Below the pieces are notes generated by a model that did not search any database, was not told the origin of the DNA, and saw only the letters and a program-made list of their open reading frames with translations. Positions 5,305 through 62,814 of a stretch of DNA of 64,000 nucleotides are shown here, one piece after another. Numbering within the stretch: the stretch's first letter is position 1; each line of letters starts with the position of its first letter. Origin of the DNA: Thioalkalivibrio sulfidiphilus. GTDB lineage: Bacteria; Pseudomonadota; Gammaproteobacteria; Ectothiorhodospirales; Ectothiorhodospiraceae. Both the position numbers and the translations under genes were made by a program. The DNA is taken from NCBI RefSeq assembly GCF_000377945.1, contig NZ_KB898921.1:124001-188000 (forward strand), in the 5' to 3' direction.

Positions 5305-5362
5305 GATCAAAGGCACCTCTCGTCTGTGACCAATTCGATTGTATCTCAACCAGGTAATGTGC

Positions 5363-5393: not shown

Positions 5394-5442
5394 ATCCATA
5401 CCAGTGGTCGTCGGGAAAGTGACGGAGGGATTGGAAGGGAAA

Positions 5443-5482: not shown

Positions 5483-5512
5483 CTGACTTGAGCCGTGTCT
5501 GCGGTGAACTGC

Positions 5513-6514: not shown

Positions 6515-6591
6515 GACAGCTCCAGTGCAGTTTCTTAACTTGAATGGATCGTTCAATGGGTCTTGGGTAGTTGATGTGGTTTCCGTTCCCT

Positions 6592-6866
6592 TTGTCCAGG
6601 TCATTTCGTACGCGTTCAGCGTAACCCTGAATCTCTGGGTGCGTGAACTGGGTGCAACGATAAGCTGATCCGGGGTCTGTCCGGCTAGCAAAAGGGGGCG
6701 GAGGGATGAGAGTTTAATCCCTCCACCCCCTCGAACTGTCTTTCCCGGTACTTGCTGCTGCTTACAAGGGCGTTAATTGTACTGAAATTGCGCACCTAAG
6801 GCCGGATTTCGACTGTTTATTGGGGAATAATCTTTTATAAACATGAGCTTGCCGAGGTCCGACCCC
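6592..6866. repeat. 275-bp intergenic repeat, copy A (with internal hairpin)
   Basis: This segment and copy B at 9336-9609 are clearly homologous across their length. Both start TTGTCCAGG and end GAGGTCCGACCCC, and between them share GGTCTGTCCGGCTA, AAAGGGGGCGGAGGG and CTGCTGCTTACAAGGGC. A hairpin (6694-6707 with 6717-6730, one mismatch) lies in the middle. It fills the 380-bp gap between the antitoxin gene and the MBL-fold gene; no other gene is visible there. Confidence 0.75.
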
Positions 6867-6894
6867 GCTATAGTTTATTCCTGCATTCCTGGAA

Positions 6895-7203
6895 TTATGC
6901 GTCTGCGACCTCACGAAGAACCTCTGGATGGCGAGACACAATCTTAAGAAGGGTTGCAGCCGCACCAGACGGCTGCCGGCGCCCTTGCTCCCATTGCTGA
7001 AGCGTGCGGGACGAAATGTGCAGGGCGGCAGCAAACTGCGCCTGCGAAAGGCCCGACTTGAGGCGCGCCGCAACCACGTCATTGGCCTCAACGCTGTACT
7101 TGGCGCCGTGCTTTCCGTTCTTGACGTCACGAATGGCCTGCAGCAGCTCTTCCCCGATGTTACGGTTTGAATCACGCGCTGAAATGGACTTTTTGCTAGT
7201 CAT
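6895..7203 (-). CDS. Antitoxin, XRE-family helix-turn-helix (HigA/NadS-like)
   Basis: A 102-residue protein with a C-terminal XRE DNA-binding domain (about residues 45-90) containing GLSQAQFAAALHISSRTLQQ and EQGRRQPSG. The N-terminal part (IGEELLQAIRDVKNGKHG) is typical of antitoxins encoded after RelE/HigB-like toxins. The ATG at 7203 overlaps the end of the toxin frame, as in intact pairs of this type. The antitoxin is intact, while the toxin has an internal stop. It probably represses its own promoter through the palindrome at 7522-7536. Confidence 0.85.
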   Translation of the reverse strand: MTSKKSISARDSNRNIGEELLQAIRDVKNGKHGAKYSVEANDVVAARLKSGLSQAQFAAALHISSRTLQQWEQGRRQPSGAAATLLKIVSRHPEVLREVADA

Positions 7204-7510
7204 GATCAAGTTCCTCCGCGATTTGGCGCAATACATGCGATGCAATATTGTCCTTCGCGCTCTTGGAATAGATTGTGAGCAGCACTACTGTGCCGCGTTT
7301 GAGGCGCACGGTGTGGATGACTCGTACACCGCCGCGCTAGCCCATCCCGGGGCGAGTCCACCGGATCTTGCGACACCCACCGGAGCCGGGGATCAAGTCG
7401 CCAGCTTCGGGGTTGCCCGCCAGATGGGTGGTGAACTCGCCGTGCTCCTCAACCGACCAGTAGTCAGGCCAGAGCTTGCTAAAGAGTGGCGACTCAATGA
7501 TGGTCAGCAT
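7196..7510 (-). pseudogene. RelE/HigB-type toxin, inactivated by an in-frame amber codon
   Basis: Read from the ATG at 7510, this frame gives a 104-residue RelE/HigB-like toxin except for one TAG at 7339-7337 (codon 58). Before it lie EEHGEFTTHLAGNPEAGD and CRKIRWTRPGMG; after it RGGVRVIHTVRLKRG, LLTIYSKSAKDN and LRQIAEEL, the conserved second half of the family. The interrupted site is normally Lys in GxGKxGGVRV, so one AAG-to-TAG change explains it. The frame ends by overlapping the antitoxin start. No other frameshift is seen. Confidence 0.85.
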
Positions 7511-7521
7511 TGGCACGAATG

Positions 7522-7536
7522 TACGCCATTGGCGTA
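7522..7536. promoter_or_regulatory. Probable toxin-antitoxin operator palindrome
   Basis: TACGCCATTGGCGTA is a perfect inverted repeat of 7-bp arms around one base. It ends 11 bp upstream of the toxin ATG. This is where an XRE antitoxin normally binds to autoregulate its operon. Binding is inferred. Confidence 0.6.
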
Positions 7537-7576
7537 TAGATCGTCAAGCAGCAAAAAGTAAAAGGGGGCGGAAAAA

Positions 7577-7627
7577 GTAAAAGGGGTCGGTGACTAATGA
7601 AAATCATTTGTCACCGACCCCTTTTAC
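7577..7627. repeat. Perfect 18-bp-arm hairpin with TAATGAAAATCATT core (copy 2)
   Basis: Arm 7577-7594 (GTAAAAGGGGTCGGTGAC) is exactly complementary to 7610-7627, and the loop itself contains AATGA...TCATT. It lies upstream of the toxin pseudogene. The phrase AAAAGGGG links it to the hairpins at 6694, 9437 and 9920. No gene is visible between 7628 and 7856. Confidence 0.75.
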
Positions 7628-7856
7628 GGTCTGATGGAAACGGATGGCAGCCCTTATCAAGCGCTTCATCCCCAGTGTTCGCGTAATACACCCATACCCG
7701 AATCAGCGGCTTTGTGTGTGACTCGATGTAGGAGCCGTATGCGTTAGTAGCGCACGTACGGATCTGTGCCGGGGGCCTGTTGAGCAAGAGAAAACCTCTG
7801 AAAAACAGGGCTCTACGGCGACTTATTCATCCCGGTTCCCCGGGACATTGCGCGCT

Positions 7857-8909
7857 TCAATCCATCAGGTTGACCTCGATGCCCTGATCCCGCAACTCGT
7901 AGGCGCGTGCATCCAGATAGCGTTGCAGTTCCGGTTGCTCCCGGTAGGCGCCGCTCAGGACATAATGCATGACACCCTGCACGTGAAAGGTCCGGAAGTA
8001 TCCCTCGGTACGGATCACCTCGCCATCCTCGGGATGCATGTACACCAGGGTAGGCGTGAAGATGACGTTCATCTCACGGGCCCATTCCCTGGCCTCCATC
8101 CTTTTTCCTGAGGGGGTCGTGACAGGGTCACGGGACCAGATGTTCACGTGGGCGATGTTGAACTGATCCAGCAGTTCATTGCTGTGATCGCGGGCGAGGA
8201 TGTCCAGGTGAAGTTCGTCGCAGGCGGTGCACTGCTCCTGTTCGAAGAACACCAGCAACGGCCGATCACTGCCCTTCATCACTTCGGAGAGATCAAAGGG
8301 CGGCGTCATCCAGCCCTCGCGCACGTGCAGCTTGCCCGAAGCCGGTTCTTCACCCACCTTGGCAAGGTATTCCGGGAAGCTCATGTCGTTCTCCCGGCGC
8401 TGTCCAATGTAGTCCAGTGCCACCCTGAATCGATGCGGGGGAAAGTAGCCATTGATTCGCGCCACCACCTCGCCGGATTCGTCAAACATCAGCAACGTGG
8501 GCGTGTACTGCACGCGCACACTACGGGCGAAATCCGCCTCGGTCATATCCGTACCATCGAGCCCCGTCACCTCGCGCGCGCCCCACATGTTGAGGGCCAC
8601 CACGTCGAAGTATTCACGCGTCTTCTCGACGATGTCCTGCTGCGCGAAGTTGTCGCGGATCAGGCGTTCACAATAGGGGCAGCCATCCTGATAGAAATAG
8701 ATCATTAGACGTCTGCCTTCGGCAGCGGCGTCCTCGATGTCCTCACGGATATCCAGAAAGGTGTCTCGAAACCAGTAAGGTGGCTCCACCCATCCTGGGT
8801 TCACCATGCCGGGAAGCAACGTTGCCTCGGCACGCGACTGTGCGCTGGCAGTGCTCCAGGCCATCAGAAGCATCAGGGTGACGATGAGAGAGAAGATAGC
8901 CGACTTCAT
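7857..8909 (-). CDS. Exported protein with two thioredoxin-fold domains
   Basis: A 350-residue protein with a cleavable signal peptide (residues 1-23, ending ASA). Domain 1 (about 50-170) has YFYQDGCPYCERLI, a CxxC redox site, and a cis-Pro motif YTPTLL. Domain 2 (about 195-320) has FFEQEQCTACDEL and FTPTLV. Each domain thus keeps a CxxC pair and cis-proline, giving a tandem periplasmic thiol-redox protein of the SoxW/thioredoxin-like (DUF255/thioredoxin_2) type. It could reduce or isomerise disulfides, or serve sulfur oxidation; the neighbours do not decide this. Confidence 0.82.
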   Translation of the reverse strand: MKSAIFSLIVTLMLLMAWSTASAQSRAEATLLPGMVNPGWVEPPYWFRDTFLDIREDIEDAAAEGRRLMIYFYQDGCPYCERLIRDNFAQQDIVEKTREYFDVVALNMWGAREVTGLDGTDMTEADFARSVRVQYTPTLLMFDESGEVVARINGYFPPHRFRVALDYIGQRRENDMSFPEYLAKVGEEPASGKLHVREGWMTPPFDLSEVMKGSDRPLLVFFEQEQCTACDELHLDILARDHSNELLDQFNIAHVNIWSRDPVTTPSGKRMEAREWAREMNVIFTPTLVYMHPEDGEVIRTEGYFRTFHVQGVMHYVLSGAYREQPELQRYLDARAYELRDQGIEVNLMD

Positions 8910-9057
8910 GTTCCGCCTTCCTTATCGAGAGACGGACCGTCGGTCGCCGGAAGCGTTGTGGACGGGTCCGCCCGAGTGGGTCGTGCATCGGACATGTCAT
9001 AAATCGACATGATGCCATCATAAATATCAGACGCACCGTGTACATGCAAAGTTTCAA

Positions 9058-9336
9058 TCAGATGAAAGGTGACAGCTGACAGCGCCATTGATGCATTGCA
9101 CCATCGTCTGCGCTGGGGCGTTTACCCGCTGTTGACTGTAGCGGACGTCCCTGCCGTCGAAACTCGATCCGACGCCCCAGGATCTGTTCCACCTCGTCGA
9201 CGAAACGTCCGTTTCCGGTCAATTGTCCACGTTGTAGGGCTTCCCGAATGAGCCGAGTCTCTGCCTCGGGCACTGCCTCCCGTATAAAGGCCCTGTATCG
9301 CTCCCGCCTGGCGGTGTCCGATGTCCCAAGCGCCAT
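9058..9336 (-). pseudogene. C-terminal remnant of a REP-associated tyrosine transposase (RAYT)
   Basis: Only the C-terminal end of a Y1/RAYT transposase survives: ALGTSDTARRERYRAFIRE, then LTGNGRFVDEVEQILGRR and a final RQGRP are characteristic of that family's tail. The catalytic HUH domain and Tyr helix are absent. The remnant abuts repeat copy B precisely at 9336, suggesting that rearrangement removed the rest. RAYTs mobilise REP hairpins, and several hairpins lie on both sides. Confidence 0.75.
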
Positions 9337-9609
9337 TGTCCAGGATCTTTCGTGCGCGTTCGGCGCAACCTTGAATCTCCGGGTTGGTGAAGAGAGGCGG
9401 AGATAAGAGGGCCCTGGGTCTGTCCGGCTACTAAAAGGGGGCGGAGGGATTACAGGTTGACCCTCCGCCTCCCTCTAACTGTCTTTCGCGATGCTTCCTG
9501 CTGCTTACAAGGGCATCAATTGTACTTAAATTGCGCGTTTAAGGCCGAATTTTGGCTGTTTTCAAGGGGATTATTCTTTATAAACATTAGGTTGCAGAGG
9601 TCCGACCCC
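9336..9609. repeat. 274-bp intergenic repeat, copy B (with internal hairpin)
   Basis: Homologous to 6592-6866 over its full length with scattered substitutions. The internal hairpin pairs 9437-9449 (GGGGGCGGAGGG) with 9461-9473 imperfectly. It occupies most of the 350-bp gap between the transposase remnant and the small gene at 9691. No gene is seen in the repeat itself. Confidence 0.75.
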
Positions 9610-9690
9610 GTTATTTGAGGTGAGACCACTTAATCAGACGTTTCCTAATATTAGCGGATATTGCTCTCTGACCCGGTTTTCGGTTTTTTA

Positions 9691-9891
9691 TTATTCTAGC
9701 AGGCCTTCCTTTCGCCATTGTGCTGCGGATTTTAAAATCCCACATTCTGTGCAGATATAATCGCCAGTACCACCACCTGGACCCTTTTCTTGCGTGAGTC
9801 TTCCATGTTTACCATTGTTGCATAACCTATCAACGGTTTCTTGCTCATTTTTTGATAAACCGTGCCAATCTCTAGCGGTAGATTTCCACAT
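9691..9891 (-). CDS. Small hypothetical protein with possible zinc ribbon
   Basis: A 66-residue protein from the ATG at 9891, chosen because AGGAG lies eight bases upstream; a GTG at 9900 also opens the frame. It has ICTECG plus an earlier Cys and His (LCNNGKH), which could form a small zinc-binding site. It is AT-richer than most of the window, like the three genes upstream on the same strand, and may belong to the same acquired module. I do not recognise a family. Confidence 0.55.
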   Translation of the reverse strand: MWKSTARDWHGLSKNEQETVDRLCNNGKHGRLTQEKGPGGGTGDYICTECGILKSAAQWRKEGLLE

Positions 9892-9919
9892 ACGATTCAC
9901 TCCTAAAATTTATAGAACT

Positions 9920-9965
9920 AAAAGGGGACGGAGTGGATTAAAATTTAATCCCTCCGTCCCCTTTT
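9920..9965. repeat. Long hairpin, AAAAGGGGACGGAG family
   Basis: Arms 9920-9942 and 9944-9965 pair with one mismatch or bulge. It carries the same GGACGGAG...CTCCGTCC motif as the other island hairpins. It lies between the small gene and the DUF262 gene and could act as a terminator for the latter, since a T-run follows on the plus strand side only. Confidence 0.7.
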
Positions 9966-10051
9966 TCTGGTTTATGTACACTTTGAGCGCAATAAGTAAA
10001 CTGTCCCCGGATTTCGGTTTATGCGCATATTTATGTATGAACAGAGGCTCC

Positions 10052-11095
10052 CTAAGCCTCGAACAGATGACAAACACGGGATTCCAAAGCTTCGAATCGC
10101 CGCTTTCTACTACCAAGATCGGTACTCGCGCGTATACCCGCTCCGTAATCTCGGGCTTCTTGGGGTAGCGTGTGCTTGTCTGCATCTTCTGCGCTAACAA
10201 ACTCATCAATCTGCGAGGCAAACTGGCGCAGCGTATCGGCGGCCTCCTGTCGCGAATCAGACGCGAGTGGTAGAGCTTCGTGATATTTGGCCATCACAAG
10301 GAATAAGGTGTAAAAGTCCGTCTTTTTACTCCATCGTGTTCTTGCCAAGTCCGGCAGCACCTGCGTGAGCTCTCCCAGGACATCGCGAAAAATCTTCTTC
10401 ACACGCGCTCCGTGCTCAAATGAGTCTTCATAGACTTGGTAATAATGCTCAAGTTTGGCTTTCTTATTCTGATGTCCATTCAGTACCGCAACCGTGAGTT
10501 CGCTAATGAACTCAACATCTAGCATCCGACGTATATCATTCGGCGAAAAAATGCCAAATTGAGACCACTCGTCCCAATCAGAAATCTCATTCATTAACTT
10601 TATGAATGGCCCCCAGTATGTAGCTTGCCGTAATTCCTGTTTATTCAGGGCCGCGACGTTCTTATTCAATCGTTGAAAGATCTCCCGGATCTGTGCGTCA
10701 TCCATTTCGGGTAGCTGCCGTACGATAAAATCGTACTGACGAATCCTCTTTCTATCGTGCACCGTCAGGTCGTCGAAGTACATGTCACCCCAAGTGGGGC
10801 TGTCCTTCGGGTCTAAAGCAAACCCTCCCGCTACATACTCCAATACTGCTCTAAGGCGCTGCTGCCCATCCACGACTACGTACCGCGCATCTCCCTCGTC
10901 GTTCACCAAGTCCTGCATATAGATTTCCGGAATTGGAAAACCCGAGAGAATTGTATCTATAAGAAAGCTCTTCTGCCTATGCACCCAGACCGGATTTCTC
11001 TGAAAAGGCGGCTTCATGTCGAGTTCACCCGCTTCGTGCGCTTTCACGAGCCAGTGCACATTTCGCGTTGTTGTGTTCAGGAATTTCTTAATCAT
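10052..11095 (-). CDS. DUF262 domain protein (ParB/GmrS-like NTP-dependent family)
   Basis: A 347-residue protein. The DUF262 signature is clear: PPFQRNPVW at 29-37, KSFLIDTILSGFPIPEIYM at 42-60 and DGQQRLRAV at 76-84, the ParB-fold active-site motif. DUF262 forms the N-terminal half of type IV restriction enzyme GmrSD and occurs in many defence loci. No C-terminal DUF1524 HNH nuclease is visible, so this is a DUF262-only protein with a helical C-terminal half. Its start overlaps the stop of the nucleotidyltransferase gene by eight bases, so the two are translationally coupled. Confidence 0.88.
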   Translation of the reverse strand: MIKKFLNTTTRNVHWLVKAHEAGELDMKPPFQRNPVWVHRQKSFLIDTILSGFPIPEIYMQDLVNDEGDARYVVVDGQQRLRAVLEYVAGGFALDPKDSPTWGDMYFDDLTVHDRKRIRQYDFIVRQLPEMDDAQIREIFQRLNKNVAALNKQELRQATYWGPFIKLMNEISDWDEWSQFGIFSPNDIRRMLDVEFISELTVAVLNGHQNKKAKLEHYYQVYEDSFEHGARVKKIFRDVLGELTQVLPDLARTRWSKKTDFYTLFLVMAKYHEALPLASDSRQEAADTLRQFASQIDEFVSAEDADKHTLPQEARDYGAGIRASTDLGSRKRRFEALESRVCHLFEA

Positions 11096-11678
11096 CGTCG
11101 TTCCCTGCTGTCGCGATTTCGCGCAGCTTTTTTATGTTATTAGTGTGATAAGCGGAGAGGGATTCGAAATCACGATAGACTCTCGCGTTGATGTCCCTAT
11201 CCTGAGTGGGTGCAATAGTTGTCATTTTCTCAAATGCCTCGAACCATTTTTTTCCGAATGGAAGTTTGGGCAGGAGATGTTTGGTATCAAATGTACCCCA
11301 GTAGATCAGGCGTTTCTTATGATCTTCCAAGGAGGCGCGCTGTTTGTTGCTTAAGGAATGGACTTTCGGCCCGAAGCTCCTAACGCAACGCCATGCTACG
11401 TCGAAGTGATATGCAGATATAATCGCAATATCAATGTCGGAAGAGTCGTCAAAATCGCGAAGATTCTTGAGGGGACTCAAGCTGAAGCCAACACATGCGC
11501 TACCAATAATCGTAATCGCACGACCATCAACCTCAATCTTTGAAGCGAGTTGAGACTTCCAATCGACGTATCCCTTCTGGTCGTTTCCAAAGATATGTGG
11601 GGTACGATCGATTACCCACCGTTGCGCGATCAGCGCAGGGCTGGTGCTCTCAAGTTCTTTGATGAAGTTATCCTTCAT
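11088..11678 (-). CDS. Nucleotidyltransferase-fold protein
   Basis: A 196-residue protein from the ATG at 11678 (AGGCGG upstream; the frame opens at a TTG at 11705). The pol-beta/MNT signature is visible: GSACVGFS from residue 59, then DSSDIDIAII with metal-binding Asp81 and Asp83. The spacing between GS and DxD is longer than in small MntA antitoxins. A HEPN gene lies upstream and DUF262 is coupled downstream. By analogy with HEPN-MNT pairs it may nucleotidylate the HEPN protein, but a sensor or second-messenger role is also possible. Confidence 0.75.
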   Translation of the reverse strand: MKDNFIKELESTSPALIAQRWVIDRTPHIFGNDQKGYVDWKSQLASKIEVDGRAITIIGSACVGFSLSPLKNLRDFDDSSDIDIAIISAYHFDVAWRCVRSFGPKVHSLSNKQRASLEDHKKRLIYWGTFDTKHLLPKLPFGKKWFEAFEKMTTIAPTQDRDINARVYRDFESLSAYHTNNIKKLREIATAGNDDD

Positions 11679-11849
11679 ATCCGCCTGGCGTCGAGACACT
11701 AACAATAGAGGTAGTCCGGAGAAACCGCGTCAGAGAGTCACTATCTCCGATATTTTCTAGGAAAAAGGCGACTGGGAAGAAGGTGACAGATCTATTTTTA
11801 CACCGCAATAATATATCTGCCACCTTTGTCAATCCCACTCTGAGTCGGT

Positions 11850-12536
11850 TTACGAATCCGGTTTGCGCATATTCCACGGGTAAGCCTCATGAATAAGACT
11901 CAGCAATACAGCCAAATTTTCTTTGACCATGGACAGCGCCCGCTCTAGGTACGGTAGTCCTAATACGAGCTGATTGTCTCGCAATTCAATATCGCTTGTT
12001 TTCTCAACGATAGTCTTTATGCTATGCAAGCGATTACTGCTTAAAGCGCCAATGTTTCCATTGGAGTGGGCAAAAACATTCCGTACGATTCTGATTTCAT
12101 TGAGATTCTGATCAAGGCGGACTTCCTTTCCAGCTACCAGTTTCAGATATAGTTCAATTCTCTTTTTCTGATTTTGCTCCCTTAGCCCATCGAGCGATAG
12201 CGGGCAAGATTCCTGACTCTTGACATAGGAGCAAACCTGCGCGGCGCCTTCTTCAAAAGCCGCCCAAGTTGCTACTAAAACCGAACCACCGAGCAGGCTT
12301 GGAATAAGACCATTAACGGTCCAATCGTGGGTCTCATACTCTTCAGCAAGATCATTCTCGGATAAGCCTGGATAGTCCTTCTCCAATCGGGCCTTGAACC
12401 GAATCATGCTTTGATCTTGGATGACAGGAAGGAACTCGATCACCGCGTTCAAGTAATCTTCTACAGACCCGATCTTGGCGCTTATCGCCAATCCTGGATA
12501 TCCATCTTCGAAGATGCGTTGGAGGTCAAATTCCAT
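11850..12536 (-). CDS. HEPN-domain protein (candidate ribonuclease)
   Basis: A 228-residue helical protein. The C-terminal half contains EIRIVRNVFAHSNGN, in which R152-N153-x3-H157 matches the Rx4-6H catalytic motif of HEPN RNases, including the usual polar residue after Arg. The helix ATWAAFEEGAAQVCSYV is like the first HEPN helix of larger MAE_28990/RiboL-PSP-type families. It is the first gene of an AT-richer minus-strand cluster with the nucleotidyltransferase (172 bp away) and DUF262. Family assignment rests on the motif and fold pattern only. Confidence 0.65.
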   Translation of the reverse strand: MEFDLQRIFEDGYPGLAISAKIGSVEDYLNAVIEFLPVIQDQSMIRFKARLEKDYPGLSENDLAEEYETHDWTVNGLIPSLLGGSVLVATWAAFEEGAAQVCSYVKSQESCPLSLDGLREQNQKKRIELYLKLVAGKEVRLDQNLNEIRIVRNVFAHSNGNIGALSSNRLHSIKTIVEKTSDIELRDNQLVLGLPYLERALSMVKENLAVLLSLIHEAYPWNMRKPDS

Positions 12537-12767
12537 CTTTAGTTAAGGCTTTGGTAAAGGTGCAGTTGGCGCGCCCAGCGGTCCAGACGCCACCTGCAAC
12601 CATGAGCGGTGCAAAAATAATTCTGTCACCATTTTTACCTCTGACCAGGTTTATCAATCTGCCTCAAGAATAACGCAGGTTTCCATGGGGCTGAACCCAT
12701 GGCGAGATAAGCAGGGCGCGGCGAATGCGCTCCGCTCATCCGCCCTACGCTACAGGAAAGCTCGTAT

Positions 12768-52864: not shown

Positions 52865-53632
52865 TCAGAGGTCGGTGAAGACCTCGGTTCGAATGCGGCT
52901 GACCAGTTGTTCCAGGGCCGCCTGGTCGGCGGGGTCCCACAGGGGCTGCCAGCCCATGCCGTTGAGATGATTCACCACCTGGCGGAAACGCAGGCGTTCC
53001 GGGTCTTCGATACGCAGGGCCTCGAACAGCCCCTGCACCTGGGACAGCGCCTGCATGCCTTCGCACACGCTCCAGGGGCCACAGGCCAGTTCCATGGGCG
53101 AGAGCCCGCGGGCCTCCAGTTCACCGGCCTCGAGGGCCTCCCGGACGATGCCGGTGACGATCTCACCCACGGGCCCGGTGCAGGTGAGTGCCTGTTCGCG
53201 ACGCTGGGGTGATGCGCTCTCCCAGACGGCCCGTGTGTGCACGTACTGCAGCAGCTTGGTGTGTTCGGGATTGCGTTGGGCGAAATCGAAGTCCCCCACG
53301 GCGATGGCGAACATCCGATCCCGGGTACTCCCGGCCGTCCAGCGCTGCACCTGCCGGAACAGCTCCACGTGGGCCTCGTTGCCCCGGTTGGCCAGGGCCA
53401 GCAGGAGGTCCTCCTTGGAGCTGAAGTGCTGGTAGAGGGTGCCGGTGGCGTAGTCGCACAGGCGTGCGATGCGCGCCATCTGCAGGTTCAGGAAACCCTC
53501 TTCCCGGATGCAGGCCTCGGCGGCGGCGAGGAAGCGCTCCTCACGCTCGGCGAATTCCCGCTGCTTTCGTTCCTTGGTGCTCACGGCCGTCGTATCCGAG
53601 TTGAATCCGGGCGAATCGTGAATCAGATTCAA
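52865..53632 (-). CDS. TetR-family transcriptional regulator
   Basis: A 255-residue TetR regulator. The DNA-binding domain (RFLAAAEACIREEGFLNLQM, ARIARLCDYATGTLYQHFSS, KEDLLLALANR) is clear. The long C-terminal part is a ligand-binding helical domain. It lies 23 bp before the adaptor gene on the same strand and probably controls the pump operon. Confidence 0.9.
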   Translation of the reverse strand: MNLIHDSPGFNSDTTAVSTKERKQREFAEREERFLAAAEACIREEGFLNLQMARIARLCDYATGTLYQHFSSKEDLLLALANRGNEAHVELFRQVQRWTAGSTRDRMFAIAVGDFDFAQRNPEHTKLLQYVHTRAVWESASPQRREQALTCTGPVGEIVTGIVREALEAGELEARGLSPMELACGPWSVCEGMQALSQVQGLFEALRIEDPERLRFRQVVNHLNGMGWQPLWDPADQAALEQLVSRIRTEVFTDL

Positions 53633-53732
53633 AAATTAATCAACATTCATATTTTGTGGGCATTGTCATTGTTGGGGGGTGAGCCTTCGTCATGAAATAA
53701 AGTGATGGGATCCATGTATCATTCTGTTTTTA

Positions 53733-53764
53733 GAAAAAAAGACCCTCCCCTGACGGGGAGGGTC
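53733..53764 (-). terminator. Rho-independent terminator of the porin/sorting-protein operon
   Basis: GACCCTCCCC (53741-53750) pairs with GGGGAGGGTC (53755-53764), and on the minus strand a run of seven T follows. It lies 36 bp after the stop at 53800, a textbook intrinsic terminator. Confidence 0.85.
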
Positions 53765-53799
53765 CAGGCAAATGGAGAGTCTCAGAGCCGACCTGGAGA

Positions 53800-54861
53800 T
53801 CAGGTTCGACGATACCTGACGCCAAGGTAGAACAAGGCGGCCAGCACCAGCACCGGGAACAGAGGATCTCGGACCCCCTGACCCGTGCTGCAGCCCAGGG
53901 TAGGCTCGACAGGGGACGGCGGAACAAAGTTCGGATCAAATTCACTGACATAGGACGCGGTCCAGCCAGGGGTGTCCACATAGGCAATCGCCCTGACCAC
54001 CTGCCCTGATTCGCTGAGCGTCGCGAACTGACCGTTCGCAATCTCTGTGCCTTCGCCATCGGGTCCCGCTGTCGGCGTGCTCCCGTCCAGGGTATAGCGG
54101 ATCATCGCACCCTCCGTCTGGCTTGTGATGGTGACCGTGTCTCCACTGGCCTCGAATTGGGGTTCCCGCACCACGGGGGGCAATACCTCGACATCATCGA
54201 AATAGATGCGAAGTGGGGGGTTGGCCGGATCACCCTCATTGGAACGGTCTCTGGCCCTGATGCTGAGCCGGACATAGCGCGGTACGGGCTCCATCGCCTG
54301 GAGGTCAGCGGACTCAATAGTCACCTCCAGCCGATGCCATTGACTGGCGGTATCGTCCATTCGGAAGTCGAAATCCTCATTGGAATTCGTGCCCGAGCTG
54401 CGACCACTGCCGGCCAGGCAATTCTCCAGGGTATCGAAGAAGTTGGGGTTGATTCGCGTACGCAGGTTGCTGTCGTCTTCTGGGTAAGCCACGTAAACCG
54501 AGAATTCGAAGTCCTGACTGACGTCAATGGGTACGCACTGCTCTGCCTTGTGGTCACCGAAACCCCGAGTTGTGGTGGGAAACCAGAGAGCATTCGATCC
54601 ACTGCGGGCCGTGATGCCGTCACCTGGGGTACCGATGACGGCTTGGCCGCCTTCGTCAAGCTCGAATTCCCAGCCGTTGGGGCCGGTGATGATGGAACTG
54701 TCGCCGACGCCGACCCATGTGCCGGATTCTTCGTCGAAGCCGGGATTGAGTACGGAATTGGCAGATGCCAGTGCAGGCAGCAATGCCAGCAGGCTCAGTG
54801 ATGCGAGCAAAGGCTTTACCGTGGTGAGACGATTACGATGAGACTGAGGTTTCATGGTCAT
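53800..54861 (-). CDS. Exported surface protein with a JDVT-CTERM-like sorting tail
   Basis: About 353 residues. The ATG at 54861 leads into a signal peptide (LLASLSLLALLPALASANS). The body is a carbohydrate-binding-module-like beta-sandwich (LNPGFDEESGTWVGVG; IYFDDVEVLPP) followed by an FN3/chitobiase-type segment (GAMIRYTLDGSTPTAG). The last 32 residues are a Cys-containing lead (GCSTGQGVRDPLFP), a hydrophobic helix (VLVLAALFYLGV) and a basic tail (RYRRT), a tripartite sorting signal. This resembles the JDVT-CTERM class, for which a CPBP protease such as the product of 60383-60838 is the expected processor. Last gene of the porin operon. Confidence 0.7.
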   Translation of the reverse strand: MTMKPQSHRNRLTTVKPLLASLSLLALLPALASANSVLNPGFDEESGTWVGVGDSSIITGPNGWEFELDEGGQAVIGTPGDGITARSGSNALWFPTTTRGFGDHKAEQCVPIDVSQDFEFSVYVAYPEDDSNLRTRINPNFFDTLENCLAGSGRSSGTNSNEDFDFRMDDTASQWHRLEVTIESADLQAMEPVPRYVRLSIRARDRSNEGDPANPPLRIYFDDVEVLPPVVREPQFEASGDTVTITSQTEGAMIRYTLDGSTPTAGPDGEGTEIANGQFATLSESGQVVRAIAYVDTPGWTASYVSEFDPNFVPPSPVEPTLGCSTGQGVRDPLFPVLVLAALFYLGVRYRRT

Positions 54862-54896
54862 GATGCTTGGGTCCTCGATTCGGATGATGGATGCGG

Positions 54897-56288
54897 TCAG
54901 AACTCGTACTGAGCGCGAAGGGCATAGACCCAACCGTCGGTGGTGTTGCCGGCGGCGTTTTCCGCATCCAGATAGATGGCGTTGAACTTGAAGGTGATGT
55001 CCTCGTGGGGGAACCAGTTCAGGCCCAGGGTGTAATGGTCCATCTTGCCGCCGTCATAGGTCCCATCGATGCCGTCTGCCGTGGCATAGCGCAAAGCCAG
55101 TTCCCACGCACCGGTACCACCGAGGCTGTTGAACGGGCGATTGGGATAGACCTTGGCGAAATCACCGTGGGTCGCTCGGTAGGTTCGGCGTTCGCCGGTG
55201 AGGAACCAACTGCCCTGGATGTAGAAACCGTCCAAGGTTGCATCGGGGACCCGGTCACGGGTGGCGTCGACACGAACGTACTCGGACTGCACCAAGAACG
55301 GTCCAACACCAGCGGCAAACTCCAGGCCATAACGCATGAGTTCAACCGTATCGTCCAGATCATTGCGACCGATCAGGCGTCCGTCGATGACCCGAGTCCC
55401 GAGGCGGGAACGCAGGCGGATATCTTCGTAACTGCGCTCCTCTCCGGGGCGTGCCACGTAGGCATTTTCACGGTAGTTCACGGAGCCGCCCAGATGCACG
55501 AAGCGGTCGTTCTCCAATAACGGTGCGAAGGAACCCCTCATGGCCAGTGAGTACCCTTCGGTGACTTCACGATCCAGATCAAGGCCACTCCCGAAAATGC
55601 CGGCGCCCAGGTACCAATCGGGCTTGATGGATTCGTACATGAAGCCGATTTCCCGATCCGGACGATACGCGTCGATCGGTGTGGCCCGTTCGATAAACAT
55701 GATGTAGCGGGAACTGGTATTGCTCTCCATGCTGAAGGGCTCCTTGACATGGCCGAACAGCAGCCTGGTTTCCGGAACACCCAAATAGGCCAGGTAGGCA
55801 TTGGCCATGCGCACCTCTTCTTCCCTGTAATCCACCTCCAATTGCCATTCCCAGTCATGGTTGATGAGACCCAGTGCGCCCAGACGCGCACGTCGAATGG
55901 CAGTGCCGTATTTCTTGGTCAGGGCGCTGTCAATCGCTGTGGAGTCATTGAGTTCCTGGCGGGCAGCATCGATCATCAGGCGGCCACGGATACCGAAGCG
56001 CTCGGATCCATCCACGGTTTCGGTGCGGAAGCGGCGTACCCGGGTTCTGGTCTCGTCGGCCACGACCGGCTCGGTGGCGTCATACATCGTGCCTTCCCGG
56101 TAGCGTGACTCCGTCGGCGGGGTCTCCACCTCGCGCCTGATGGCCTCCGCCTCCTGCTGACTGATGATGCCCTTGTCGATCAATAGATCCATCAAGCGCT
56201 GTGACTCACTGGCGTGCGCCGTAGCAGGCATCAGACAGACGGCCGCCACCGCAGTTGCTGACAATACACTCAGTCGCTTTTTTTTCAT
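54897..56288 (-). CDS. OprO/OprP-type (phosphate-selective) porin
   Basis: A 463-residue outer-membrane porin. Signal peptide (residues 1-26, ending AHA), a short coiled region (LMDLLIDKGIISQQEAEAIR), then a long beta-barrel ending YALRAQYEF with the C-terminal Phe required for assembly. RFGIRGRLMIDAAR and WQLEVDYREEEVRMANAYL are typical of the OprO/P family. Such porins pass phosphate, pyrophosphate or other anions. It lies 31 bp after the permease gene, so it probably supplies substrate to that importer. Confidence 0.87.
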   Translation of the reverse strand: MKKKRLSVLSATAVAAVCLMPATAHASESQRLMDLLIDKGIISQQEAEAIRREVETPPTESRYREGTMYDATEPVVADETRTRVRRFRTETVDGSERFGIRGRLMIDAARQELNDSTAIDSALTKKYGTAIRRARLGALGLINHDWEWQLEVDYREEEVRMANAYLAYLGVPETRLLFGHVKEPFSMESNTSSRYIMFIERATPIDAYRPDREIGFMYESIKPDWYLGAGIFGSGLDLDREVTEGYSLAMRGSFAPLLENDRFVHLGGSVNYRENAYVARPGEERSYEDIRLRSRLGTRVIDGRLIGRNDLDDTVELMRYGLEFAAGVGPFLVQSEYVRVDATRDRVPDATLDGFYIQGSWFLTGERRTYRATHGDFAKVYPNRPFNSLGGTGAWELALRYATADGIDGTYDGGKMDHYTLGLNWFPHEDITFKFNAIYLDAENAAGNTTDGWVYALRAQYEF

Positions 56289-56319
56289 GTTGCTTCTCCG
56301 TTGTGGGTGAATGAGGGCA

Positions 56320-58014
56320 TCAGACGCTTCGTCGTCTAATCTGGAACAGCGCGAGCACGATGGTGCTGAGCAGGATGGTCACGGTGGCCATGGCCATGGC
56401 GGTGGATATGTCGCCCTGCTCGAACTGGTTGAATATGTAAGTCGCCGTGGTATCCACGCCGGGGGGCAACAGCAGCATGGAGGCCACCAGCTCACGCATG
56501 GTCACGATGAAGGTGGTCAACCACGCGGCTATGAGTACCGGACGGAGCTGGGGGAGAACGATCTGCAGGAAGATCTGAATCCGGTTGGCGCCTGCTATGG
56601 CCGCTGCGTTCTCCAGGTTTGGGCTCATGCTCAGCAGACGCGAGTTCGAGTAATTCAAGGCGTCGGTGATATAGATCACCACGTAGGCGAACAGCAGCAT
56701 CCAGACGGTGTTATAGAGCGTGAACGGTAACCAGGGCGCGTTCCAGGCAAGGATCAGTGCCACCGCCATCACGATCTTGGGGATCACCCGGGGCAGCATG
56801 GCGAGACCGTCGAGGATCTTTTGAAGCGGTCCTGATGAACGCACGTTGACGTAGGCGATGTAGCTACCCACCACGACGCAGATGGATGCCGCGGCCACGG
56901 CGAGCCAGAGACTGGTCAGGAGTGCATCCAGGCCCCTGGAGCCAGCGGCAAAGAGGGAGCGGTAGTGATCCAGGGTCAACGACGGAAGTCCGTCGGTCCA
57001 CTGATCGGCAAGGCTGGTGAGCAGCATGGCAAAGTAGGGCAGCAGGGTGCTCAGGGCGAACAGCCCGCCGAACCACAGCCAGCCCAGCAACATCCCGCCG
57101 GCACCCAGCGCGTGGGTGTGAACAGCACCCGGCTTCAGATTTCCACCACCGAGGATGTTGGCCAGTATGCGACTGCCGTAGAGCGTGAACAGCGCGAACA
57201 GGCACAGTAAGGACGACAGGGCGGTGGCCAGCGCCAGGTCTACTGGCCAACTGGTCACCAGGAAGAAGATCTCGGCGGGTAGAAGCGGAAGATTCGAGCG
57301 CGTGCCAAGCACGGCTGGCACGCCGAAGTTGGACAGGGCCTCAAGGAACACCAGCAGACCCGAATTGAGAATGGCGGGCAGCAGCAGGGGAATGACGATC
57401 AGGCGCGCGGTCTGGGACCAGGTGGCACCGAACATCCCCGAGGCATCCTCGAGTCTTCTTGGGATCGACTGCAGACCTGCCTCCACAGCCAAGGCCACGT
57501 AACCGAAGGAGGACAGCGCCATCACCAGGGTCACGCCCCAGAATGAGAAGAACCAGGCGCGCAAGGTCTCTGGCATGACGCCCAGCAGGCTGTCGCTGAA
57601 GCCACCCTCCTGCATCACCAGGATGTATGAAAGTGCCGCGATGTATGGTGGGGTCATGATGGGCACGAGCAACGAAAGCCGTGCCCAGAGCTTGCCTGGA
57701 AGGTTGGTGCGGGCCAGGTAATAACCGCAGGGAATGCCGAATAGCCAGCTCACCACCGTGGTGGCGCCCGCCCATGCCAGGGAATTCCACAACATGGGCA
57801 GCATGTCGTGGGTCTGCCCTATCCGGCGGTAGGCATCGAGAAATCCGTCCAGGGAGCCACCCAGGATGTCGGGATAGATGCTGCTCAGAAACAGCAGCAA
57901 CAAGGGGTAGCCCATGGCCAGGATCAGGACCGCGGCGACCAGCAAGAGCGGCAGCCGTATACCGAGCGCCACGCCGGCCCGACCCAACAAGGGACTGTGG
58001 ATGAGTGCAGCCAT
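56320..58014 (-). CDS. ABC importer permease, FbpB-type fused double permease
   Basis: A 564-residue protein with about twelve membrane helices in two BPD-transporter halves, as in Fe(III) (FbpB) and 2-aminoethylphosphonate importers. EAA-like loops are LASASG-like RRLEDASGMFGATWSQTARL and NLENAAAIAGANRIQIFLQI. It sits between the binding-protein gene (overlap or four-base gap) and the porin gene. Confidence 0.9.
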   Translation of the reverse strand: MAALIHSPLLGRAGVALGIRLPLLLVAAVLILAMGYPLLLLFLSSIYPDILGGSLDGFLDAYRRIGQTHDMLPMLWNSLAWAGATTVVSWLFGIPCGYYLARTNLPGKLWARLSLLVPIMTPPYIAALSYILVMQEGGFSDSLLGVMPETLRAWFFSFWGVTLVMALSSFGYVALAVEAGLQSIPRRLEDASGMFGATWSQTARLIVIPLLLPAILNSGLLVFLEALSNFGVPAVLGTRSNLPLLPAEIFFLVTSWPVDLALATALSSLLCLFALFTLYGSRILANILGGGNLKPGAVHTHALGAGGMLLGWLWFGGLFALSTLLPYFAMLLTSLADQWTDGLPSLTLDHYRSLFAAGSRGLDALLTSLWLAVAAASICVVVGSYIAYVNVRSSGPLQKILDGLAMLPRVIPKIVMAVALILAWNAPWLPFTLYNTVWMLLFAYVVIYITDALNYSNSRLLSMSPNLENAAAIAGANRIQIFLQIVLPQLRPVLIAAWLTTFIVTMRELVASMLLLPPGVDTTATYIFNQFEQGDISTAMAMATVTILLSTIVLALFQIRRRSV

Positions 58015-58017
58015 GGA

Positions 58018-59055
58018 TCAGTTCGTCTGTCCTTGCCCAGCCCGGACCACCTGGGCGCGCTCTACCTGATACTGGAACCGGCGCAGGATCTCGGTCTGAC
58101 GTTTCAGGGCCTGTTGCATGTCCAAAGGCAGCAGCGGGGGGAGACCGTCATGGCTTCTGACCGGGCTCCAGGCCACCTCCCTGTGTGCCGGTAGCAGGTG
58201 GGCGTCGGCGACCGCCTGCTGCATGGGTACCGAGAAATAGGTGTCCACGAAGCGACGGGCCAAGTCGGGCACGGGTGTGTCCGCAAGGATCACGATGGGT
58301 CGCAGCACCAGAGCCGAGCCCGATGGCGGGTAGTGCATGACCAGTGGCTCGCCGCCTTCGATCTGGCGGTAGATGAGATAGTCGACCGCGCCCATGATCG
58401 CCTGAACCGAGCCGATCAGCAGGCTGCTGATGGCCTGGCTGTTGGCGGCGGCGAACTGCAGACCCTGTTGCCTTGCAGCGAGAAAGTCGTCCCAGATGCT
58501 CTCTTCGTGGGAAAGCGCGTAGCTGACCAGAAAATCTCCCGCCGCGCCGGATCGCGATGGCATGGGCATGAGCACGCGCCCCGGAAACCCGCCATCCAGG
58601 AAGTCCTTCCAGTCGAGGCTAAGGTCAGCGGCTTCGGCGCGCATGGCCACGCCCACCAGCGCAGCGCCGGTGGCGAGATAGTAGTGGTCGGGGTCGTGCC
58701 AGTGGGAATGGGTGAGGTCCAGCCACTCGGGCTGGTAGGAGAGCAGTCTGCCATCCTGCTTGAGGGCCTCGGCGGCCACCTGGCTTGCGAAGATCACCAC
58801 GTCCGCGCGAGGCCGGTATTTCTCCGCTTCCAGCTTGGCCATGATCTGACCGGTAGTGGCCGCGAACAGCTCCACCCGTGCACCGGTCTGCGCCTCGAAG
58901 CTGTCCACCACCGTTTCGATGAGTGCACGCGGACCCGCCGAGTACACCACCAATGTGTTCTCGTCACGGAGTGCGGTGTCGCAGCCGGACAGAACCGGCA
59001 GCAAGAACACCAGACACAACAGGGTCGATCGTGTTGTTCGCAAGATCGCGAGCAA
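58018..59055 (-). CDS. ABC importer substrate-binding lipoprotein
   Basis: A 345-residue periplasmic binding protein with a lipoprotein signal (LVFLLPVLSGCDTALR). The body matches the FbpA/AfuA-like type 2 fold: LVVYSAGPRALIETVVDSFE, TGARVELFAATTGQIMAKLE, ADVVIFAS. The adjacent-Tyr pair used for Fe(III) by FbpA is not visible (the region reads AVDYLIYRQ), so iron is not assured; phosphonate or phosphate-like anions are plausible given the porin. Four bases separate it from the permease gene. Confidence 0.87.
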   Translation of the reverse strand: MLAILRTTRSTLLCLVFLLPVLSGCDTALRDENTLVVYSAGPRALIETVVDSFEAQTGARVELFAATTGQIMAKLEAEKYRPRADVVIFASQVAAEALKQDGRLLSYQPEWLDLTHSHWHDPDHYYLATGAALVGVAMRAEAADLSLDWKDFLDGGFPGRVLMPMPSRSGAAGDFLVSYALSHEESIWDDFLAARQQGLQFAAANSQAISSLLIGSVQAIMGAVDYLIYRQIEGGEPLVMHYPPSGSALVLRPIVILADTPVPDLARRFVDTYFSVPMQQAVADAHLLPAHREVAWSPVRSHDGLPPLLPLDMQQALKRQTEILRRFQYQVERAQVVRAGQGQTN

Positions 59056-59137
59056 ACCTTAGTACCTTGTGTGTTACCCGGCGGTCCGTGCCGTTGTGGA
59101 TCAGACCGGAGAACCAGCGCCCTCCGGTGTCGGGGGT

Positions 59138-60205
59138 TTACCTCTCTACAAAATGCATTGCGTGCATCGAGAAGCGGATTTCGACTGGATGACCTGGGTT
59201 GATCAGGTCATCGGCAAAACCACGGACCAGGGTGTCGTCGACAAGGCGAGCGAGCACCTCATGACGATCCCCCAGGAACTGGCTGTGGTGACAAACCGCG
59301 GGCAGACAGATCTCATCGTTAGCGGCATTTTGGGAGCTGTCCGGCACCACGCGTACAGACTCACGCCGCAACACCATGTGGCCTGTTTCAGGCAAGGTTT
59401 CCAGTGGCATGGGCACATGTATCTCATCGCCCAGTATCAGGCTTGTACCGTTGCGACGGTATTCAAAGAGATTCGAAGAGCCGATGAAGCCGGCAACGAA
59501 TCGGCTGCGGGGCTGACGATAGATCTCCTGGGGCGAGCCCATCTGCTCGATTCTGCCCTGGTACATGAGGGCCACCTGGTCCCCAAGGGCAAATGCTTCT
59601 GACTGATCGTGGGTCACGTAAACCGCGGTCAGACCATTGTCCTTCAAAAGACGGGCAATCTCGGATTTCAGGTCCTCACGCAGGCGGGCGTCGAGTGCGC
59701 TCAGTGGTTCGTCGAGCAATATCAGGCGAGGCTGTACGGCCAGTGCGCGGGCGATGGATACCCGCTGTTGCTGACCACCAGACAATGTCGCTGGATGACG
59801 GTCTTTGAATTCCGTCATCTGTACCTGTTCCAGGACACGCTGCACACGTTTGATTCTTTCCTGGCGCTTGATACCACGTATGCGCAGGCCGTATGAGACG
59901 TTGTCCTCCACGCTCATGTGGGGCCAGAGACTGAAATCCTGAAACACCATGGAGAATCCGCGCTGGCGCATGGGTACATGGATGCCACGGGCAGGGATAT
60001 CCAGCGCTTCGCCGTCCAGATGCAGCTCGCCACCATCAGCGGCGATAGCGCCAGACAGGATGTTGAGCAGTGTGGTTTTTCCGCAGCCGGAGGGGCCGAG
60101 CAGAACGAGACATTCACCCTTGTCAAGGGAGAAATCGATGCCTTCCAGGACAGTCTGCTGACCGAATTTTTTGTGAATATTCCGGCAGCTGAGGTGGGAC
60201 ATCAT
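59138..60205 (-). CDS. ABC importer ATPase (FbpC/PotA-like)
   Basis: A 355-residue ATPase from the ATG at 60205. Walker A GPSGCGKT, Q-loop VFQDFSLWPHMSVEDNVSYG, signature LSGGQQQRVSIARALA, Walker B LILLDEPLSALD and switch His in YVTHDQSEA are all intact. A C-terminal TOBE-like domain follows (QPRSRFVAGFIGSSNLFEYR). It is the first gene of the importer-porin-sorting protein operon. No recognisable Fur or Pho box is seen in the 177-bp upstream region. Confidence 0.9.
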   Translation of the reverse strand: MMSHLSCRNIHKKFGQQTVLEGIDFSLDKGECLVLLGPSGCGKTTLLNILSGAIAADGGELHLDGEALDIPARGIHVPMRQRGFSMVFQDFSLWPHMSVEDNVSYGLRIRGIKRQERIKRVQRVLEQVQMTEFKDRHPATLSGGQQQRVSIARALAVQPRLILLDEPLSALDARLREDLKSEIARLLKDNGLTAVYVTHDQSEAFALGDQVALMYQGRIEQMGSPQEIYRQPRSRFVAGFIGSSNLFEYRRNGTSLILGDEIHVPMPLETLPETGHMVLRRESVRVVPDSSQNAANDEICLPAVCHHSQFLGDRHEVLARLVDDTLVRGFADDLINPGHPVEIRFSMHAMHFVER

Positions 60206-60382
60206 AGCTCGCCTGTGTCGTAATCTGTGGGCGAATACTGACACGCGAAATTATGAACTCCACGAGTTACAAAAAAATGAATTGGGTGTGATTGTTCTAT
60301 GAATGATGTGTGGTTTGTGACCACTGGAGTTATTGGTGATGATATTTTGTCGTGCTCAAGTCAGGAAGCCATAGGTCACTAG

Positions 60383-60838
60383 GTGAGCAACTTACCCTTG
60401 TTCGTGTCAGCGAGGATTCAGTGGCGGGATCCCTACCTCTGGCTTGCCTTGGGCGCCGCGCCTCTTGTGTGGTATTGCATGGCTGCATTCGTCCCGCTGG
60501 CGCGGGATGGTGGAGCATTGCTTGAGCGCACGCATCATCTCTTGATGCTTGGATTCGTGTATCCGGTGCTTGAGGAAATGGTCTTCAGGGGATTGATTCA
60601 GGGATGGCTGGCCAAACATCTGCCGCAGCGCCTTGGTCCCTTGTCACTGGCCAACACGTTGACCAGTGTGTTGTTTACGCTGCTTCACATGATCCGACTC
60701 GTACCGTGGGTGGCAGTCTGGGTCTTCGTGCCCTCAGTGATCTTCGGCTTCTTCCGGGAGCGCCATGGAAGCCTGCGGACACCTATTTTGTTACATATCT
60801 ATTACAACTTGGGCGTGTTATTGCTGTTTGTGGATTGA
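60383..60838 (+). CDS. CPBP-family glutamic intramembrane protease (MrtJ-like)
   Basis: A 151-residue protein with about four membrane helices. The catalytic EEMVFRG lies in FVYPVLEEMVFRGLIQGWLA, and the second and third active-site regions FTLLHMIRLVPW and LLHIYYNLGVLLLF carry the expected His residues. It is short for CPBP (type II CAAX-like) proteins, as expected for sorting-associated members. It diverges from the importer operon and is the likely processing enzyme for the C-terminal tail on the protein at 53800-54861. Confidence 0.75.
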   Translation: MSNLPLFVSARIQWRDPYLWLALGAAPLVWYCMAAFVPLARDGGALLERTHHLLMLGFVYPVLEEMVFRGLIQGWLAKHLPQRLGPLSLANTLTSVLFTLLHMIRLVPWVAVWVFVPSVIFGFFRERHGSLRTPILLHIYYNLGVLLLFVD

Positions 60839-60858
60839 ATACCTGCCTCAGTACCGCG

Positions 60859-62814
60859 TCAGCCGGTCTCAGGTGGGCCGAGATCCGCCAGCGGCAGTGG
60901 CATGTGCAAGGCCGCACAGATGGCGCGCAGCAATTCGGTCTCCGCTGTGACCGTTTTACCGCCATGGGTGATGGTGGCTACAAGCCCGCGCAGTAGACGT
61001 TCCTTGTCCTCCAGTTGCAGTTCGTCCAGGCGCTCCAGTGCCGCGTCCAGACGATCCGCCCAGGACTCGGATGAAGGCATGCGGGGGACGGTCTCGAAGC
61101 CAAGTGCTGCCAGTCCGGCATTGAGCGCGGCCAGGGCCTGGTCCGGCTTGTCCGGATGGCCATGGCCGGCCACGATGCCCAGCAGGTCCATGGCCTGGGC
61201 ACGCAGGGCTGACAGATCCCGCCGGCCGCCGGACTGGGCACGGCTGGGATGGGCGGCATCGTCCAGGTGCCGGGTGAGCAGACGGGCCAGGGCATATTCG
61301 AACACGTCGACTCGGCCGTCCGCGTGGATCATGCGCTCCACCAGGCCACGCAGGCCTTCCCGCTCCGATTCGGGCCGGCGACGTATCGCCGGGAAGGCGA
61401 TCTCCAGCAGCGGGATGCGCAGCTCCGGCGCGACCCGGGGTTCCATGTGCAGCAGCTTGCGCACCTGGGCCTCGCTTTCCGCGCCCAGGGTCTCGGCCAC
61501 CATGAGCAGCTGGCGATCACGGATGGCCTCGTCGGGGTCCAGCAGCAGGTAGCAGATCAGCTCCGGGGCCCATTCCGGCGAGTGGGCGGCCCGTTCCAGG
61601 GGGCGGGGAATGGCCGCCACCAGCAGCGCGGCGGCCAGCACCTGGCCCATGCCCGGCTGGCCCATCTGTTCGATCAGCCTGTCCGCGTCCAGTGGCAACC
61701 CGCCGGGACCTGCCGCCCTGCCCCGTCCGGCCGTCTCGCGGGCCGCCTCCTCCTCGGCGGCCGCCCGGCGTGCCTGGGCATGGCGCTGCATCTGCTCGCG
61801 GATGGTTTTGAGCTCCTCCGGGTCGAAGCCCGGCTCGATGGCGCGGATGCGTTCCACCAGGGGCGGATGGGTCGCGAACATCTGCCCCATGGCGCCGTTG
61901 GCGAACAGCATGTGGGCCACTTCCTCGCTGTTTGCATGGATGACCGAACCGGCCCCGGCAGCACCGATCTTTTTCAGGGCGCCCGCGATCCCCTCGGACT
62001 GGCGGGTGAACTGCACCGCCGAGGCGTCCGCCAGGTATTCCCGCTGTCGGGACACCATGGCCTTGATCCAGCGGGCGAAGAACAAGCCCACGTAACCCAC
62101 CAGCATCACTGCAAGCCCCAGGATCACGATGGCGGCCACGCCGCTGTTGTCCTTGGAGCGGCGGGTGGAGACGTAGCGGACCGAGGCCATGAGCTGCCGG
62201 CCGATCATGGCCATGACCAGGATGCCGAACAGGATGCCCATGAGACGGATGTTCAGGCGCATGTCGCCATTGAGGATATGGCTGAACTCGTGGGCGATGA
62301 CCCCTTGCAGCTCGTCCCGGTCCAGGTGTTCCAGGGTGCCCCGGGTGACCGCCACGGCGGCGTCGGCGGTGGAATAGCCCGCGGCGAAGGCATTGATGCC
62401 GGACTCGTGTTCCAGCACGTAGATCTCCGGCACCGGCACGCCGGAGGCGATGGCCATCTCCTCCACCACATTGCGCAGGCGCCGGCGCAGGGGGTCATTG
62501 GTGTCCGGCTCCACCAGGGTGCCGCCCAGCTCCCGGGCCACCACCCCGCCACCGGCGCGCAGGTTCACCATGCGGAACAGGCTGCCCAGGGCGATGAGGC
62601 CGCCGCTCAGGGCCGTGCTCCAGACGATCACGCCCAGGTGACGCTGCAGGAAACCGGCGCTCAACATGGATTCGTCCGGGTACTGGAGCCGACCGAACAG
62701 CAGCAGGGCCACCAGGTTGACCAGCAGAACGATGCCGAGCACCGCCAAGGCGAACAGCAAGAGCAGCCGCTGACTCTGACGTCGGGCCCGGTCCTGGTGC
62801 TGAAAGAAGTTCAT
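60859..62814 (-). CDS. M48-family membrane metalloprotease
   Basis: A 651-residue HtpX/M48-like protease. Four N-terminal or central membrane segments are visible (LLLLFALAVLGIVLLVNLVA, VIVWSTALSGGLIALGSLF, ILFGILVMAMIGRQLM, AAIVILGLAVMLVGYVGLFF), with the zinc site HEFSHILNGD between them and the third ligand in MVSRQREYLADA. A C-terminal region of about 350 residues, helical and not peptidase-like, is longer than in HtpX. It forms a unit with lemA. Confidence 0.9.
   Translation of the reverse strand: MNFFQHQDRARRQSQRLLLLFALAVLGIVLLVNLVALLLFGRLQYPDESMLSAGFLQRHLGVIVWSTALSGGLIALGSLFRMVNLRAGGGVVARELGGTLVEPDTNDPLRRRLRNVVEEMAIASGVPVPEIYVLEHESGINAFAAGYSTADAAVAVTRGTLEHLDRDELQGVIAHEFSHILNGDMRLNIRLMGILFGILVMAMIGRQLMASVRYVSTRRSKDNSGVAAIVILGLAVMLVGYVGLFFARWIKAMVSRQREYLADASAVQFTRQSEGIAGALKKIGAAGAGSVIHANSEEVAHMLFANGAMGQMFATHPPLVERIRAIEPGFDPEELKTIREQMQRHAQARRAAAEEEAARETAGRGRAAGPGGLPLDADRLIEQMGQPGMGQVLAAALLVAAIPRPLERAAHSPEWAPELICYLLLDPDEAIRDRQLLMVAETLGAESEAQVRKLLHMEPRVAPELRIPLLEIAFPAIRRRPESEREGLRGLVERMIHADGRVDVFEYALARLLTRHLDDAAHPSRAQSGGRRDLSALRAQAMDLLGIVAGHGHPDKPDQALAALNAGLAALGFETVPRMPSSESWADRLDAALERLDELQLEDKERLLRGLVATITHGGKTVTAETELLRAICAALHMPLPLADLGPPETG

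Follow-up and report, generated by a model that had tools for sequence, protein, structure and literature searches.

The locus lies near the right end of the window (the whole 64,000-nucleotide stretch of Thioalkalivibrio sulfidiphilus DNA that was analysed) and contains five genes on the minus strand and a sixth that diverges from them. The minus-strand genes encode, in the order of transcription, an ABC importer ATPase (59138–60244), a lipoprotein solute-binding protein (SBP; 58018–59055), a fused two-domain ABC permease of 564 aa (56320–58014), an OprO/OprP-type outer-membrane porin (54897–56288) and an exported protein of 353 aa with a C-terminal sorting tail (53800–54861). The intergenic gaps from the ATPase to the tail gene are 82, 3, 31 and 35 bp, and the five genes are therefore consistent with a single transcription unit, in which the tail gene is the last member and is followed by a strong intrinsic terminator (53740–53765) with an 11-bp stem (eight GC pairs), a 4-nt loop and the sequence 5′-TTTTTT. 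The sixth gene, mrtJ (60383–60838, plus strand), encodes a 151-aa myxosortase-type glutamic intramembrane protease and is separated from the ATPase gene by 138 bp of AT-rich DNA (60245–60382; GC 0.40) that presumably contains the promoters of both the operon and mrtJ. A promoter scan of this interval gave no sigma-70-like site, and there is no convincing match to a Pho box upstream of the operon (best match 13/18; shuffle fraction 0.09, not significant). The original prediction, made from the sequence, was of an operon of importer, porin and exported tail protein ending in a good terminator, with a divergent CPBP protease at its head, and every one of these parts is in place, including the stem and T tract (53765–53740) and a protease that scores over the MrtJ cut-off.

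The porin matches the Porin_O_P profile (PF07396) with 182.5 bits, and a phmmer search of the PDB returned OprP (1.4e-18) and OprO (3e-16) and no other structures, which bears out its earlier designation as an OprO/P porin. The ATPase contains a PF00005 domain and the permease two BPD_transp_1 domains; their best models are TIGR03265 (PhnT2) and TIGR03262 (PhnU2) respectively, but no importer protein reaches the 2-aminoethylphosphonate equivalog cut-offs (58 vs 393 bits for TIGR03261, 144 vs 593 for TIGR03262 and 322 vs 458 for TIGR03265; score vs cut-off). The SBP has a lipoprotein cysteine (Cys25 of LSGC) that is invariant in seven relatives, and profile searches match it best to AfuA (1e-16), with further matches to relatives of FbpA, to P5PA and to a putative 2-aminoethylphosphonate-binding protein. 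Hexose phosphates are the ligands of AfuA (PMC4546632), which was formerly annotated as iron-binding, and pyridoxal phosphate is that of P5PA (PMC8427247). The adjacent iron-ligating tyrosine pair of FbpA falls on an invariant D225-Y226 in the HMMER alignment, such that the first tyrosine is replaced by aspartate in all seven aligned SBPs. AfuA was compared at its ligand residues His205, Asp206 and Glu229 and its phosphate-site residues Ser37 and Thr150; in this low-identity alignment Asp206 (equivalent to D225) and the Ser/Thr-Gly phosphate-site positions (T68-G69 and S169-G170) are kept, and His205 is not aligned to a histidine. The importer resembles the sugar-phosphate and 2-aminoethylphosphonate importers more than the iron-transporting FbpABC, and its earlier description as FbpABC-type is loose, given the replaced tyrosine of the iron-ligating pair.

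The tail protein was listed by the ORF-finding program as a 377-aa frame starting at TTG 54933, although its likely start, as read from the sequence, is ATG 54861, which has GAGGA upstream and lies 35 bp past the porin stop codon. It begins with an apparent Sec signal peptide, MTMKPQSHRNRLTTVKPLLASLSLLALLPALASA, and continues with a beta-rich region resembling a CBM4/9 module (both read by eye), a CHB_HEX_C_1/Fn3-associated stalk segment (54067–54147; residues 263–289 of the 377-aa frame; PF13290, 32.3 bits) and the tail LGCSTGQGVRDPLFPVLVLAALFYLGVRYRRT (53809–53895). In a by-eye alignment to the tails found in other genomes, the last of these has the invariant cysteine of the family followed by a membrane helix and a basic C-terminus. 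The protein scores 31.6 bits against the JDVT-CTERM model NF033191 (cut-off 27; E 1.1e-7) and the tail 36.4 bits in a six-frame search of the genome, so what was first noted as JDVT-CTERM-like is over the NCBI cut-off for that family. JDVT-tailed proteins elsewhere have highly varied ectodomains (e.g. choice-of-anchor O, choice-of-anchor F and cadherin-like); a CHB_HEX_C-like stalk and a JDVT tail also occur together in open frames of two other genomes (G065 and G332), and the protein therefore fits the modular build of its family. A profile search of the ectodomain revealed no recognised ligand-binding family besides the short CHB_HEX_C-like stalk, a PDB search gave no match, and its relatives among 369 genomes of the class are limited to stalk-like matches. 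Predicted structures are poor, with a mean pLDDT of 42 for the tail protein (single sequence) and 48 for the SBP (seven sequences). A reading of the tail as a PEP-CTERM signal for a resident exosortase was rejected because it scores with JDVT-CTERM only. The genome does encode an EpsH-family exosortase (G000:C2:86071–86832; 154 bits), which is a second C-terminal sorting protease unrelated to MrtJ.

The product of mrtJ matches NF033192 (MrtJ) with 94.6 bits (cut-off 75; E 4.5e-27) and keeps the CPBP catalytic residues of EExxxR, FxxxH and HxxxN, with E64, E65, R69, F98, H102, H138 and N142 invariant across 12 aligned MrtJ proteins. It deviates from the others at the near-invariant His and Pro of an 'HPP' motif (positions 106 and 108). 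In the entire 3.05-Mb genome a single JDVT tail and a single MrtJ are over cut-off, and the three further CPBP proteins have MrtJ scores below 50 bits or no match to the model. The two genes are separated by 6.6 kb and four other genes and are thus not directly adjacent; the chance of both sole copies falling within 6.65 kb is estimated at ~0.4% under random placement (2 × 6.65/3053). As judged from these profile matches, the tail protein and MrtJ are a predicted JDVT-CTERM substrate/protease pair, one to one in this genome. The original prediction of a dedicated pair is upheld by these single copies, and the count of other tails with sorting HMMs that was proposed alongside it found no other JDVT tail over cut-off: the tail matches a sorting model, and the genome has no crowd of further JDVT proteins. 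A type II secretin, GspD, is also over cut-off in the genome.

Comparison by blastn with a genome of the same genus (G044) shows 94–96% identity on both sides of the locus (95% in HtpX and about 96% in the tetR-RND genes) and no match between them, such that 53573–60892 (7.3 kb) is missing in G044 and ~314 bp of other sequence is in its place. The HtpX loci of two other genomes (G042 and G045) are likewise without the 7.3-kb block. GC3 within the block is 0.64–0.80, compared with 0.84–0.95 in acrB, tetR, htpX and lemA, and no target-site duplication flanks the block. Because the whole block is missing in G044 and has a lower GC3, the importer and porin were gained or lost in one piece together with the tail protein and MrtJ, and this cassette was apparently acquired horizontally. 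Its absence from the orthologous site of so close a relative also means that the physical linkage of the sorting pair to the importer and porin is recent. The empty G044 site (L195, about 6457–6772) contains an inverted repeat, GTCGGGCTTCAGCCCGAC/GTCGGGCTGAAGCCCGAC, that is REP- or MITE-like. Elsewhere in the window, positions 1–12700 have lower GC and GC3 than 12.7–53.6 kb (GC 0.46–0.49 at 10052–12536), which suggests another acquired segment.

The MrtJ/JDVT pair has been described as a sporadic two-gene neighbourhood of beta- and gammaproteobacteria (Guo, Haft and Wall 2025, PMC11980579), and the two-gene system is credited to Haft 2024 as described in PMC11980579. In an even set of 369 genomes of the class, MrtJ is over cut-off in 53; with three same-family genomes added there are 56 MrtJ genomes, 43 of which also have a JDVT tail over cut-off (exactly one in 29 of the 43). 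The tail is within 2.5 kb of MrtJ in 17/56 genomes, and adjacency is thus typical of the system, not defining. When the DNA around 56 other MrtJ genes (712 kb, with two of the genes in one genome) was searched with the proteins of the window, no relatives of the porin, permease or SBP were present at any of the 56 loci, and the sole matches to the importer were two unrelated ABC ATPases. MrtJ systems are therefore not, as a rule, linked to an importer and porin. The expectation that such linkage would be unusual holds, in that it is unique in the sample, but it does not represent a conserved system that had been missed: the locus as a whole is not conserved, either at other MrtJ loci or at the importer operons of the same family. 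G044 has a different MrtJ elsewhere, beside a choice-of-anchor O JDVT protein, and another MrtJ genome (G014) has, ~9 kb from MrtJ, a CRISPR-like array (L042, 1–1000) in which a 28-nt repeat recurs every 60 nt over at least 15 units.

Permease relatives at 73–76% identity are encoded in three of the other 46 genomes of the family. Two of these importer operons have the order ATPase–SBP–permease–porin and the third is consistent with it, although its gene calls read poorly; none has a tail protein beside the importer, and MrtJ over cut-off is absent from all three genomes. One of them (G001; L139, 680–16948) has the importer operon divergent from genes matching a pst-like phosphate ABC operon, with a 5′-nucleotidase-like lipoprotein ~4 kb beyond the importer permease and a possible tandem Pho box between the two operons. 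This pst-like neighbour, the AfuA and P5PA matches of the SBP and the OprO/P porin together make a phosphorus-bearing anion the best guess for the imported substrate. No importer relatives were found on plasmids, and the nearest outside the class are in metagenome-assembled genomes of Opitutales and Phycisphaerales. The Opitutales operon has the order porin–ATPase–SBP–permease and is followed by a gene for an exported protein of 288 aa whose C-terminus is PEP-CTERM-like; two Phycisphaerales genomes encode a homologue of this protein (36% identity; E about 1e-38) upstream of the importer, on the other strand and with one gene between. The PEP-CTERM matches are under the curated cut-offs, exosortases are encoded in the genomes concerned, and the proteins have no detectable homology to the tail protein of the window. 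In two other phyla the same importer thus lies near what appears to be a surface-type protein with a different sorting signal, a parallel that is weakened because such genomes encode many PEP-CTERM proteins and strengthened because one protein family recurs in both phyla. The Phycisphaerales contigs also encode large exported proteins (L079, 3–1898; L081, 982–3450) in which the domain of the PEP-CTERM-like neighbour is repeated, one of them with a dockerin-type domain at its end.

The explanation that we favour, and think somewhat more likely than not, is of an apparently horizontally acquired cassette of two modules. One would be an OprO/P-type porin with an ABC importer for what we infer to be a phosphate-bearing or phosphonate-like organic anion, and the other a single exported JDVT-CTERM protein with its dedicated MrtJ, the surface protein probably serving the importer. 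In the related system of Myxococcus xanthus, MrtX cleaves MYXO-CTERM proteins in a cysteine-dependent manner and the client reaches the cell surface (PMC11980579). By analogy with that system, the tail protein would be exported by Sec and its C-terminal helix would keep it in the inner membrane, its tail cysteine would be lipidated, possibly by Lgt, MrtJ would cut next to the cysteine, and type II secretion would then take the anchored protein to the cell surface; the lipidating enzyme is unidentified even in the myxobacterial system (PMC11980579). The most likely role of MrtJ is to trim and anchor this one client, which type II secretion would bring to the cell surface. The weakest step is a guess, namely that the surface protein would help uptake by attaching to the nutrient source or concentrating it, and a ligand-capture role of the kind first proposed for it is likewise a plausible guess.

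Several observations weaken this two-module explanation: the ectodomain is without a recognised binding domain that would tie the tail protein to a nutrient, no Pho box was found upstream of the operon, the importer and porin are absent from 56/56 other MrtJ loci, and the same-family importer–porin operons have neither a tail protein nearby nor a genomic MrtJ over cut-off. The last two, together with the great variety of JDVT ectodomains, would be expected if the sorting pair and the importer–porin operon were unrelated passengers assembled by chance in an acquired island, with the pair used in adhesion or another surface role. We regard this as somewhat unlikely, since the operon itself includes the tail gene and mrtJ lies at the opposite end, so that the pair brackets the importer, and since an independent link between the importer and a PEP-CTERM-like protein is present in two other phyla. 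The original view of a single functional locus is accordingly sound as to physical linkage, and otherwise draws on one genome plus this parallel.

Two further alternatives concern the individual modules. MrtJ could be a shedding protease that frees the tail protein into the periplasm or medium with no surface anchoring, as a CPBP endopeptidase cleaves without transpeptidation and anchoring requires a separate lipidation enzyme (PMC11980579); this is unlikely given that the family cysteine is kept in the tail and that in the sister MrtX system cysteine-dependent cleavage leads to surface anchoring (PMC11980579). Less probable still is an importer for iron (FbpABC-type) or another non-phosphorus substrate with the exported protein as part of metal acquisition. 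The SBP profile matches do include FbpA and further ferric-binding proteins, but the best match is AfuA, itself once mis-annotated as an iron protein, the first of the two adjacent FbpA tyrosines falls on the invariant D225, and the importer is paired with a porin of the phosphate/pyrophosphate type.

The two-module cassette has similarities to several known systems. It shares with the MrtJ/JDVT-CTERM system the protease family and the tail, both over NCBI cut-offs, as well as single copies and a sporadic distribution; however, that system is described as a two-gene neighbourhood (in the account given in PMC11980579), whereas here the pair brackets a four-gene importer–porin operon and travels with the cassette. 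The MrtX/MYXO-CTERM system likewise has a CPBP glutamic intramembrane protease, a cysteine-containing C-terminal tail and type II secretion, but in myxobacteria MrtX has dozens of clients, in contrast to the one detectable client and short 151-aa protease here. PEP-CTERM/exosortase is also a C-terminal sorting system, and PEP-CTERM-like proteins neighbour the same importer in Opitutales and Phycisphaerales, but its protease is unrelated to MrtJ. AfuABC and PhnSTU/PhnS2T2U2 belong to the same SBP cluster and the same permease and ATPase families; the window proteins differ in being far under the equivalog cut-offs, in the fused permease and in having an OprO/P porin in the operon. The sorting pair is of a kind already known, and its combination with importer and porin genes is new and seen only here in the sample.

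A speculative extension, which we doubt but consider worth stating, is a general class of uptake cassettes with an OprO/P porin, a phosphoanion importer and a surface-anchored capture or docking protein, the anchoring chemistry being swapped according to the host. If the class is real, it would use JDVT-CTERM with its own MrtJ here and, in Opitutales and Phycisphaerales, PEP-CTERM with the exosortase of the host, and the surface protein would capture or dock the nutrient outside the cell on behalf of the importer. Myxosortase-type C-terminal sorting systems have been recognised only recently, and hardly any of their client proteins has an assigned function; a self-contained mobile cassette with client, protease and importer is a small genetic unit in which the function of a client could be tested against a defined transport phenotype. 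A sorting protease that travels with its sole substrate would also explain the sporadic distribution of MrtJ.
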